Below are positions 4,509-25,367 of a DNA stretch of 25,367 nucleotides, piece by piece. Below the pieces are notes generated by a model, which was given only the letters and a program-made list of their open reading frames with translations, had not been told where the DNA came from and did no database searches. The stretch is taken from the IMG/VR virus record IMGVR_UViG_3300029989_000144, positions 1 to 25,367 of that record, one strand, 5' to 3'. The stretch is from a virus. The translations under genes were made by a program, and so were the position numbers. Within the stretch, counting starts at the first letter, position 1; every line of letters starts with the position of its first letter.

Positions 4509-5050
4509 CCTATCGTACGGGAAGTCGCGGCAGTGGCGGAGCAACTCCAGAACCGTCAGCGGGAGGTGTCGACATCGGATTCTTCGACTATCGCAACACC
4601 CTGCCTGACCAGTATTTCGAGTCGACAGTCTGGAACACGATCAAGAATAACGCCCTGGGCCCTCAGACCGAGCTTCGATTCGCGCCAAAAGGTGTCACGT
4701 CGATGCTTGATACGGCGACCGGACGAATCTTGTTGAGCGGCCTGGCGATTGGCGACCAGGTTTACGTCCGCCACACCTTGAGCGTGCTCGGCTACGTCAA
4801 CAATATGAGTCTGACGCTGCGCAACTACTTCGGCCAGACTGGCCAGGAGTACGTCGAGCCGTTCGGGCCTACGATCCGATTGCAGTCGGGTGCTGGCGTT
4901 CAAAGCGGGCTCCAGATCGCTGATTCCAGGTTCTATGTGCGCGATGAGAATACTCGGCTCGGCGGGGTGCTGCCTCAGATCAAGGGTGACAACAGGTTTG
5001 AGGTTCAGTATTCGGGGGTTTATATCTCGGTGATTCGGAAGAATAGTTGA
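4505..5050 (+). CDS. Unrecognised beta-rich protein in head region
   Basis: A 181-aa protein starting at ATG 4505 behind a GGAGG site in the upstream gene's tail and overlapping its stop (ATGA). The N-terminus is glycine- and serine-rich ('GSRGSGGATPEPSAGG'), like a flexible linker or a capsid-binding tail. The rest alternates hydrophobic and polar residues in short strands ('ILLSGLAIGDQVYVRHTL', 'LTLRNYFGQTGQEYVEPFG', 'FEVQYSGVYISVIRK'), which suggests a beta-sandwich or jelly-roll fold. This shape would suit a capsid-surface fibre or decoration protein, but I cannot name a family. Its TGA stop lies inside the -35 box of the downstream accessory promoter, so the accessory cassette was joined exactly at this gene's end. 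Confidence 0.75.
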   Translation: MTYRTGSRGSGGATPEPSAGGVDIGFFDYRNTLPDQYFESTVWNTIKNNALGPQTELRFAPKGVTSMLDTATGRILLSGLAIGDQVYVRHTLSVLGYVNNMSLTLRNYFGQTGQEYVEPFGPTIRLQSGAGVQSGLQIADSRFYVRDENTRLGGVLPQIKGDNRFEVQYSGVYISVIRKNS

Positions 5051-5115
5051 CATAGGGTTGCCGGATAACTATTATCTCTCCATCGAAACAAACAACGGAG
5101 CAAGACGAGATGACT
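5043..5115 (+). repeat. 73-bp promoter/leader repeat, copy 1
   Basis: This stretch spans the promoter, leader, Shine-Dalgarno and first two codons (ATGACT) of the gene at 5110. It is repeated in inverted orientation at 25264-25336 with only three differences in 73 bp, all transitions (copy 1 versus copy 2 on its own coding strand: G to A at 5056, and A to G in the leader twice). The genes downstream of the two copies are not similar after the second codon. Confidence 0.95.
5047..5075 (+). promoter_or_regulatory. Sigma70-type promoter of accessory gene (P1)
   Basis: The -35 box TTGACA (5047-5052) is perfect, followed by a 17-bp spacer and -10 TATTAT (5070-5075, 5 of 6 to consensus). The -35 overlaps the TGA stop of the upstream gene. 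The half sites ATAGTT (5043-5048) and AACTAT (5067-5072) form an inverted repeat across the promoter and could be an operator. The expected start of transcription is near 5082, giving a leader of roughly 28 nt before the ATG at 5110. Confidence 0.88.
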
Positions 5116-5589
5116 CACGCAATCCCGCAATGGCTGCGCGACCAATTCGACGTAATTGAGTTGCGAGTCAGAAAGATGGGGGCTGAAGCTGTATTCACAC
5201 AGATGCGCACTAAAGTGCAGGCCTACTTTGAAATGCAGCGCTCGGTAGAGAACAGTAGGGCAGGCAGGGATCTGGCCATTATCACGCAGCAGAAGAACCT
5301 GATCGAATCTTTGCGCGAAGATCTGCAATTAGCAATCGCCATTGATTGTCAGGATGACGTAATTGATGCGTGCGCTGAGGCTGGGATTAAAGATATGACT
5401 CCGGGTAAAGCTATTCGTCATCTCAACGACTTAAAGGTGGATCTGCTGAATTCTCTGGAGGAGTGCCTGCCATGCCTAGGATGGAAGAATATGTCAGATG
5501 AATATATCAAACGAGAGCATGAGCTGGGCAATGGGTATGCGGAGCTGATCCTTCGCGCCCGCTTCGCTATTGCCAAAGCAAAAGGATGA
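5110..5589 (+). CDS. Accessory (moron 1) protein of unknown function
   Basis: A 159-aa protein, predicted soluble, charged and largely helical, with no recognised domain. It starts at ATG 5110 after a GGAG at 5097-5100. Visible features are a possible coiled-coil stretch ('GRDLAIITQQKNLIESLRED', about residues 57-76), a CxxC-like pair in 'EECLPCLGW', and a C-terminal 'RARFAIAKAKG' tail resembling the end of the small protein encoded at 16150-16455. It is a self-contained unit: own strong promoter before it and an intrinsic terminator after it, placed between head genes on the same strand. This promoter-gene-terminator arrangement is that of a moron, a gene not needed for virion assembly that often acts in lysogeny or host defence. 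The specific role is unknown. Confidence 0.85.
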   Translation: MTHAIPQWLRDQFDVIELRVRKMGAEAVFTQMRTKVQAYFEMQRSVENSRAGRDLAIITQQKNLIESLREDLQLAIAIDCQDDVIDACAEAGIKDMTPGKAIRHLNDLKVDLLNSLEECLPCLGWKNMSDEYIKREHELGNGYAELILRARFAIAKAKG

Positions 5590-5623: not shown

Positions 5624-5651
5624 AAGCCCTCTTAATCGAGGGCTTTTCTTT
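5624..5651 (+). terminator. Intrinsic terminator closing moron 1
   Basis: An 8-bp perfect stem AAGCCCTC (5624-5631) / GAGGGCTT (5638-5645) with a 6-nt loop, followed by TTTTCTTT (5644-5651). It lies 35 bp after the stop of the 159-aa gene. It would also limit transcription arriving from upstream head genes, so the following head genes may need their own promoter or antitermination. Confidence 0.88.
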
Positions 5652-24528: not shown

Positions 24529-24532
24529 AACA

Positions 24533-24556
24533 AAGCCCCAATCAAGGGGCTTTTTT
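24533..24556. terminator. Bidirectional terminator at end of late operon
   Basis: AAGCCCC (24533-24539), loop AATCAA, GGGGCTT (24546-24552), with T-run 24551-24556 on the + strand, and TTTGTTTT on the - strand from the preceding AAAACAAA. It ends the lysis operon and also stops the convergent minus-strand transcript. The last codons and stop of the minus-strand 55-aa gene lie inside it. Confidence 0.9.
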
Positions 24557-24709
24557 CATGCCGTACTTTTTTACCCTGCCAATCGCATGTTTCAGCGAGT
24601 CGCATTCAACGCCCAGGCTGCTTGCGATCAGTTTCCAGCAAATACCCTCGGTTCTCAGCTCGTAGGCAAATGCCAAGTCCTCGTAGGGTATCGACAGACT
24701 AGTGCGCAT
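24542..24709 (-). CDS. Small HTH-like DNA-binding protein, 55 aa
   Basis: A 55-aa minus-strand frame, ATG at 24709-24707, stop TGA at 24544-24542. The central part ('AYELRTEGICWKLIASSLGV', then 'ECDSLKHAIGRVKKYG') fits a helix-turn-helix: 'R.EG..Wk.IA..LGv....L..a..R.kk.G' is the pattern of many short phage and transposase HTH domains. It overlaps the end of the membrane-protein gene by 11 bp, so it could be translated by coupling; the ribosome-binding site is weak (GGGCGGTG). The terminator encodes its last residues. It is a candidate regulator of the accessory promoters, but that link is inference. Confidence 0.6.
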   Translation of the reverse strand: MRTSLSIPYEDLAFAYELRTEGICWKLIASSLGVECDSLKHAIGRVKKYGMKKAP

Positions 24710-25016
24710 TCATCACCGCCCAGTCGATCAGATAGGTCAGCGAGAGAGCTACAGCGAATGCCCCGATCAGAAAGGTATTTGTGAAGCGCTTGCCCAGGTA
24801 TTTATCCATTTGGATGACTCCACTCGGGCTGTCTTCCCGGAGTTGCTGGCGCGTCTTTCTGGTTGCCTGGATACGCATAAATGGTTTTGCTGGGCCCGGC
24901 TGGGTATCGCTGCACTCCACAAGTATGACGGAGTTATTTTGCTTGCAGGATGCAATGAGGCCGCCAAGGCTATTGCGCATGTCTTTATCGGTGAGCTTGG
25001 CTACTTGGGCTTGCAT
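24699..25016 (-). CDS. Accessory small membrane protein
   Basis: A 105-aa minus-strand protein. It has a soluble N-terminal part ('LTDKDMRNSLGGLIASCKQN', 'NSVILVECSDTQPGPAKPFM') and one C-terminal membrane segment ('TFLIGAFAVALSLTYLIDWA', about residues 80-100) ending close to the C-terminus, as in tail-anchored proteins. The start ATG 25016 follows AAGAGGAGAT, a strong ribosome-binding site. A second in-frame ATG (MDKYLGKRF) behind GGAG could express the membrane part alone. No recognised family. It lies convergent to the lysis genes and is part of the right-end accessory cassette. Confidence 0.75.
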   Translation of the reverse strand: MQAQVAKLTDKDMRNSLGGLIASCKQNNSVILVECSDTQPGPAKPFMRIQATRKTRQQLREDSPSGVIQMDKYLGKRFTNTFLIGAFAVALSLTYLIDWAVMNAH

Positions 25017-25044
25017 GGCGGATCTCCTCTTATTGGTACTGGCA

Positions 25045-25064
25045 AAGCCCCAGTTAAGGGGCTT
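25045..25064 (-). terminator. Hairpin after the 66-aa gene
   Basis: AAGCCCC (25045-25051), loop AGTTAA, GGGGCTT (25058-25064). On the minus strand it lies 4 bp after the 66-aa gene's stop, followed only by TTTGCC, so it is likely a weak terminator or attenuator that allows some read-through to the 105-aa gene. The stem is the same as in the terminator at 24533, with a different loop. Confidence 0.6.
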
Positions 25065-25068
25065 GAGG

Positions 25069-25269
25069 TTATCGGGGCTGGCAGGCTTGAAAGTAAGCCT
25101 CGGCTTTGGCCTGAGTGCAACGGCGGGAACCGTAATAGAAGCTCAGGCGCTGGCCGCGACGGGTCATTGAGCGAACGCAAACGATGTCTGCATAGCGCGC
25201 CTCGCCGTAGCCGGCCTTTGAAAATGTCGCGTTATTGATAGCCATGTCGATCAGCATTTGAATAGTCAT
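25069..25269 (-). CDS. Accessory small protein behind repeated promoter P3
   Basis: A 66-aa minus-strand basic protein ('NNATFSKAGYGEARYADIVC', 'SMTRRGQRLSFYYGSRR') that I do not recognise. It is soluble, without a clear motif. It starts at ATG 25269 with the same leader and GGAG site as the moron 1 gene, since the 73-bp repeat covers the promoter to the second codon. The strong promoter and hairpin after the stop make this a moron-like unit convergent to the late operon. Confidence 0.75.
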   Translation of the reverse strand: MTIQMLIDMAINNATFSKAGYGEARYADIVCVRSMTRRGQRLSFYYGSRRCTQAKAEAYFQACQPR

Positions 25270-25336
25270 CTCGCCTTGCTCCGTTGTTCGTTTCGATGGA
25301 GAGATAATAGTTATCCGGCAACTCTATGTCAACTAT
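25264..25336 (-). repeat. 73-bp promoter/leader repeat, copy 2 (inverted)
   Basis: Reverse complement of 5043-5115 with three transitions. It includes the -35, -10, leader, Shine-Dalgarno and first two codons of the 66-aa gene. The similarity stops abruptly at both ends. Right of it, 25337-25367 holds no gene; the last bases (AAAAAAGCCCG) look like one arm of another terminator cut by the window edge. Confidence 0.95.
25304..25332 (-). promoter_or_regulatory. Sigma70-type promoter of right-end cassette (P3)
   Basis: On the minus strand: -35 TTGACA (25332-25327), 17-bp spacer (25326-25310), -10 TATTAT (25309-25304). It has the same core as P1, with one base different in the spacer. The inverted half sites ATAGTT/AACTAT that flank the core in P1 are also kept. 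Confidence 0.88.
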
Positions 25337-25367
25337 CAATCCACAAGCCCATACACAAAAAAGCCCG

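Follow-up and report, generated by a model that had tools for sequence, protein, structure and literature searches.

The initial transcribed sequence of the T7 A1 promoter is reported to support facile promoter escape, also on the escape-limited N25 promoter, and pyrimidine-rich versions of the initial sequence to impair it (PMC12464699). In T4-type phages, PeSL cassettes have been described, in which an early promoter is combined with a stem-loop (Arbiol 2010 and Comeau 2014, cited in PMC4503421). For the early promoters of the T4-type phages RB69, RB49 and 44RR, the promoter passages of PMC1524935 report a preference for C at positions -3 to -1. In archaeal viruses, conserved early regulatory sequences have been used to find anti-defence genes (PMC11065993).

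The stretch of viral DNA analysed here (25,367 nucleotides of IMG/VR record IMGVR_UViG_3300029989_000144; hereafter the window) encodes a contractile-tailed phage, with genes for terminase, portal, protease, capsid, sheath, tape measure, baseplate and tail fibre. It carries a 73-bp unit twice, in inverted orientation. The unit resembles the PeSL cassettes in being a short regulatory cassette repeated before unrelated small genes, with the second copy also placed after a terminator. However, PeSL elements consist of a promoter and a stem-loop, whereas the shared part of the unit considered here is a transcribed leader and the promoters vary. An early promoter and a stem-loop terminator repeated as one unit were not found in the window: the terminator lies outside the 73-bp repeat, and none was seen upstream of copy 1.

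Results

The duplicated unit and its genomic setting

A repeat search over the whole window returned a single long inverted pair, with copy 1 at 5043-5115 on the plus strand and copy 2 at 25264-25336 on the minus strand (73 nt, 96% complementary). Since the remaining inverted pairs in the window were only two of 25 nt at 76%, a chance origin of the 73-bp pair could be excluded. When the copies were compared base by base, exactly three differences were found, all of them transitions, which reproduced the original prediction to the letter. Each copy spans a promoter, a leader and the first two codons of a gene. Both promoters have the form TTGACA-17 nt-TATTAT and match 11 of the 12 consensus bases. 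In copy 1 (promoter 5047-5075, plus strand) the -35 lies at 5047-5052 and the -10 at 5070-5075, with a spacer of 17 nt, and in copy 2 (promoter 25304-25332, minus strand) these elements lie at 25332-25327 and 25309-25304. The -10 is followed in both copies by a 6-nt gap, the octamer ATCGAAAC (from 5082 on the plus strand and 25297 on the minus strand), GGAG, and an ATG at 5110 and 25269, respectively. The predicted transcription start (+1) is the A of ATCGAAAC, the seventh base after the -10. With its 5' end at this position, the window leader reads 5'-ATCGAAAC(A/G)AACAACGGAGCAAGACGA(A/G)ATG, and the start-anchored leaders would occupy 5082-5109 on the plus strand (ATCGAAACAAACAACGGAGCAAGACGAG, predicted +1 at 5082) and 25270-25297 on the minus strand (predicted +1 at 25297). 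Their octamer gap of 6 falls in the range of 5-7 nt after the -10 that defined our leader set, and their 28 nt, with GGAG and then the start codon, agree with the placement of a Shine-Dalgarno sequence (SD) and start codon about 20-35 nt from +1 in that set.

Over positions -42 to -1, the two promoters were identical at 38 of 42 bases, upstream of genes that are unrelated. Copy 1 precedes a gene for a 159-aa protein (5110-5589, plus strand), whose N-terminal third resembles P. syringae phage proteins. Copy 2 heads a minus-strand set of small genes, starting with one for a 66-aa protein (25069-25269) and followed by one for a 105-aa protein without a known family (24699-25016). As had been proposed, the 159-aa and 66-aa products showed no mutual BLASTP similarity; neither had a PHROG assignment or an above-threshold Pfam family.

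The TGA stop codon (5048-5050) of the upstream head-region gene falls within the -35 of copy 1. In the Vibrio phages 1.154.O and XM1, which arrange their head genes in the same order, 47 bp separate the two genes that flank copy 1 in the window. The window has about 630 bp at this place, holding the promoter, the leader, the 159-aa gene and a terminator-like hairpin (AAGCCCTC-TTAATC-GAGGGCTT with a T-rich tail, 5624-5651, plus strand). Judged from these gene arrangements, copy 1 and its gene are a moron-like insertion that is absent from the related Vibrio phages; of the parts expected of a moron, the promoter matches 11/12 bases and the hairpin at 5624-5651 was recognized by eye, being absent from the scan listing. 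Copy 2 directly follows a terminator-like hairpin, GCCCGC...GCGGGCTTTTTT, of which the window contains the 3' part (25353-25367, minus strand) and the sister contig L004 the whole. Two similar hairpins of the type AAGCCCC..GGGGCTT were seen after small minus-strand genes in the window (24532-25069, minus strand), and hairpins of this type likewise follow a relative of the 66-aa protein gene in contig L071. In the Agrobacterium phage Atu_ph07, small antisense gene clusters, some with the leader, lie between head genes (163641-164484 and 174070-175085) and resemble the moron-like insertion of the window.

The host of the window phage is probably Pseudomonas, because Pseudomonas phages account for the close matches to the leader among named phages, and the 159-aa protein resembles proteins of P. 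syringae phages over its N-terminal third. Head, tail and lysis genes were present in the window and an integration module was not identified there; the lysogen named in the original prediction is hypothetical.

Recurrence of the leader across phages

An exact search of IMG/VR with promoter plus leader returned three contigs, all from the window's own phage, as they were 99.98-100% identical over their overlaps. Searches with the leader alone gave many more matches. When the 73-bp unit was compared by BLASTN with 50,697 phage records, as the original prediction had proposed, the matches mostly ran from the -10 to the leader and did not include the whole promoter. The leader was found in the Pseudomonas phages PfAn1, phiPto-bp6g and Torfinnsbu and, with mismatches, in MR14 and Touem01. 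It was further present in Klebsiella phage mfs, Pamexvirus phiH2, the Pectobacterium jumbo phage CBB, E. coli phage Rtp, a 180,500-bp phage record, Atu_ph07 (490,380 bp) and many viral contigs. Single phages can hold at least two copies with unrelated genes. When these sites were aligned at the leader, different promoters stood directly upstream at a nearly constant distance from the -10; the -10-to-octamer distance is constant, whereas the octamer-to-SD distance varies. It is well supported that it is the leader, as a unit, and not the promoter that recurs across phages. The idea of a promoter copied as a unit holds within this phage, where it stands in one piece before unrelated accessory genes, but the promoter does not belong to a shared mobile family; what had been taken for a swapped unit is better described as a shared leader with promoters and genes exchanged on either side.

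Scrambled octamers served for comparison. A strict promoter pattern followed by the octamer gave 61 non-redundant sites in viral contigs, against 14 with a scrambled octamer, and at the 6-nt gap the same scan gave 40 against 2. With GGAG included in the pattern, 66 contigs were found for the octamer and 8 for its scrambled version. The pattern of this GGAG scan biases the pooled gap distribution, and the spacing is therefore taken from the strict promoter scan and from the Atu_ph07 analysis below. A pyrimidine directly preceded the predicted +1 in 165 of 177 sites. Downstream of the leader, 158 open reading frames fell into 122 clusters, 104 of which had a single member, and their median length was 72 aa. 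Conservation of the leader through homologous downstream genes could be ruled out, given these 122 clusters across phages and the BLASTP dissimilarity of the two window products.

That the leader can be parted from its promoter is illustrated by contig L071, which encodes a relative of the 66-aa protein (95% identical). Here the leader matched at 30 of 31 positions and the 42 bp upstream at 16 of 42, about the level of random promoter pairs (median 15 matches). With the leader kept and the promoter at random level, one of the two lineages must have acquired a different promoter, joined at +1 or directly beside it. Klebsiella phage mfs has promoters of another class, with an upstream box ATAGCAC...TTGNTAAA and no TTGACA. 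In about half of them ATCGAAAC follows the -10 at the same distance; in the rest its place is taken by related A/C-rich starts such as ACACCAAC or ATACCAAC, so that the exact octamer is not required in this phage. Around 15 promoters with the box ATAGCAC...TTG(C/T)TAAA, lacking a TTGACA -35, were counted in mfs (L297-L299), and this box suggests that a phage-specific activator or another promoter class may operate in Webervirus.

Two further observations concern parts of the leader and its genes. Phage records of 177-180 kb and contigs carrying the Pseudomonas-type leader (L225, L250, L255 and L231) have homologous small proteins (LKAKVVKVLVKNGFN / MKAKVINLLIKGGFN) encoded behind the leader, and it is possible that leader and gene were passed on together from phages of one host to those of another. 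In phage HU1 (L420) and in L206 (G006), the 3' half, GAACAACGGAGCAAGACGAGATG, is present and the 5' octamer is not, from which it appears that the ribosome-site half of the Pseudomonas leader version can be used alone.

In 257 Gb of bacterial and archaeal genomes, the 19-mer leader core had no exact match, and a looser form of the leader had only eight matches, none preceded by a promoter, which we read as chance. E. coli genomes gave no match and plasmids three weak ones. On these searches, the possibility that the leader was borrowed from a host gene was rejected.

Promoter-first analysis of Atu_ph07

Because pattern searches select what they ask for, the whole Atu_ph07 genome was read in segments and promoters were picked by their -35 and -10 alone. 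In 36 of the 83 sites obtained in this way, ATCGAAAC stood exactly 6 nt after the -10, and at none of the other offsets from 0 to 11 was it found. The genome contains 82 copies of the octamer, as compared with 13 to 46 copies of four scrambled octamers. Among 49 strict promoters, positions +1 to +9 were conserved (A T C G A A A C R) at 0.84-1.48 bits per position. Information rose at -1 (C or T), amounted to 0.07-0.35 bits at +10 to +13, and rose again at the SD. The view that the full leader is retained under selection is borne out to the extent that the leader is under constraint. The genome paper of Atu_ph07 makes no mention of promoters.

For a subset of Atu_ph07 sites, such as CTCCTTC|ATCGAAACGTTGAAGGAG, the SD region has its complement in the 8 nt that precede +1. 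Compared with permuted arms, these SD-hiding arms gave a z of 4.4 in Atu_ph07, with 0 of 1000 permutations reaching the mean stem score, and z values of 1.6 and 1.3 in the other sets. Hiding of the SD in read-through RNA is known for some T4 genes, and in this subset the SD could, according to the predicted stems, be hidden in read-through RNA and free in RNA from the own start. As a general explanation of the leader an SD-hiding hairpin was rejected, the signal being found in Atu_ph07 only. A hairpin of the leader itself was likewise rejected: the untranscribed CUCC must be included to pair with GGAG, and the structure is not special (z 0.07).

Discussion

The leader is a conserved phage regulatory start module, and an unusual one, as it lies downstream of +1 and is common to unrelated phages. 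As to its function, we consider it an even call that the core of the 73 bp is a portable 5' leader, giving strong and promoter-independent expression through an initial transcribed sequence joined to an open ribosome-site module. Such a leader would act in cis on the host RNA polymerase and ribosome. In it, AUCGAAAC-R would be followed by an open, A-rich stretch and by GGAG, with the start codon placed some 24-28 nt from the 5' end. Its first nine nt would serve as initial transcribed sequence and allow the polymerase to escape quickly from near-consensus promoters, and the remainder would form an almost unstructured ribosome-loading site. The leader would work behind any sigma70-type promoter and before any gene, which would explain the exchange of promoters on its one side and of genes on the other. 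In the window phage, one promoter-leader combination would have been copied to two moron-like loci. The conserved block from +1 to +9 has about the length of the RNA made before promoter escape, and near-consensus phage promoters are of the kind limited at escape; these two points, together with the AUCGA shared with T7 A1, favour a role of +1 to +9 as initial transcribed sequence.

The main rival, which we regard as somewhat unlikely, places the function at the RNA level only: the 5' AUCGAAAC and the A/C-rich stretch would leave the ribosome site accessible, promote ribosome loading or make the 5' end more stable, with polymerase escape being irrelevant. Several observations are consistent with it. 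Leaders were less folded than shuffles, with a predicted mean of -3.3 kcal/mol over +1 to +50 against -4.6 kcal/mol for the shuffles, and 74 of 158 had no predicted structure at all. In Atu_ph07, the start codon offset was 25.3 +/- 1.2 nt, and octamer-like starts were found at 42 of the 68 promoters followed by an SD and start codon, as compared with 1 of the 15 others. The A/C-rich variants in mfs point in the same direction. Two Atu_ph07 promoters before tRNA genes lack the exact octamer, one of them carrying a form with two mismatches, which hints at a role at the mRNA rather than the polymerase level, two being too few for more than that. However, openness needs no fixed octamer locked to the -10, and it is the octamer-to-SD distance that varies and the -10-to-octamer distance that is constant. 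Moreover, pairing with 16S, 23S and 5S rRNA beyond the SD was no better than for shuffles, except for one Atu-type 8-mer and an 8-nt 23S match, the meaning of which is uncertain.

It is improbable, in our estimate, that the leader is the target of a regulator, in which case +1 to +20 would be read, for joint shut-off or activation, by a protein of phage or host that binds RNA or DNA, such as CsrA/RsmA, Hfq/Crc or a repressor of the phage. The high information content of the block and its presence at many genes of one genome would fit such a protein, as would ACGGAG, which includes ANGGA, the core known for CsrA/RsmA. Yet the phages with this leader differ widely in size and host, the leader also stands in a structural region of 25 kb, and the block is not palindromic. 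In addition, the window leaders folded to 0 kcal/mol when taken from their own start, and these transcripts do not contain the GGA-presenting hairpin expected of a CsrA/RsmA target.

We hold it to be very improbable that the leader is a recombination linker, a short shared sequence for promoter and gene exchange without an expression role of its own. The junction near +1 between the window and L071, the presence of at least two copies with unrelated genes in single phages, and the 73-bp duplication itself agree with such a linker, which would nevertheless need neither a constant -10 distance across unrelated phages nor conservation of +1 to +9 and of the SD without the bases between them. A purely local event, in which promoter and leader were recently duplicated inside the window phage and nothing further is conserved, would account for a pair that is 96% identical including the promoter and for the exact combination being confined to contigs of this phage, but as a full explanation it is refuted by the leader in unrelated phages behind other promoters and has next to no probability left, although the promoter part of the 73-bp pair probably did arise by local duplication.

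A wider and more tentative suggestion is that AUCGAAAC-R may be a cross-lineage viral 5' tag on phage mRNAs, preferred by conserved machinery of the host (RNA polymerase, a ribosome factor or a factor acting at the 5' end) and selected in unrelated phages of alpha- and gammaproteobacteria. Phage transcripts would be favoured in this way, and early, moron and anti-defence genes might be recognized by the tag from sequence alone. If the proposed function is correct, strong and shared selection acts on the first nine bases transcribed in many phage messages, whatever their promoter or gene, and the question whether AUCGAAAC speeds promoter escape, ribosome loading or both becomes testable in laboratory strains. 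With the leader as a search handle, small early and accessory genes would be simple to locate in phage genomes, and expression design would gain a portable leader of natural origin.

In the literature searched, the leader sequence was not found in print and no earlier description of it was found. The initial transcribed sequences of T7 A1 and T5 N25 resemble the leader in starting at +1 and covering about the first nine bases, and they belong to strong promoters. T7 A1, an annotated promoter for the host polymerase, has its annotated start at the A of ATCGAGAGG, and its RNA begins AUCGAGAGG, of which only AUCGA is shared with the leader. T7 A3 (T7 380-900) begins ATGAAACGACAG at its annotated start, which is near ATCGAAACGA minus one base. 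The T7 A1 and T5 N25 sequences have been described promoter by promoter, whereas one and the same leader octamer is found in unrelated phages infecting several groups of bacteria, stands in dozens of promoters of one genome and is joined to an SD leader. The term moron covers the insertion of promoter, gene and terminator between genes that are adjacent in relatives, as at copy 1 with its putative terminator, and leaves the shared leader unexplained. For the early promoters of RB43 and relatives (PMC1524935) and the RpoD-like promoters of CBB (PMC5259590), which concern the same phages and the same promoter class, the promoter passages of these papers give -35, -10 and UP features and do not mention a conserved leader at +1 to +9. 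The signal of the archaeal viruses is similar in that, within a genome, many small early genes without mutual relationship carry a single regulatory sequence as their mark; it is, however, a BRE/TATA promoter with virus-specific flanks (PMC11065993), whereas the leader lies downstream of +1 and is shared by unrelated phages.
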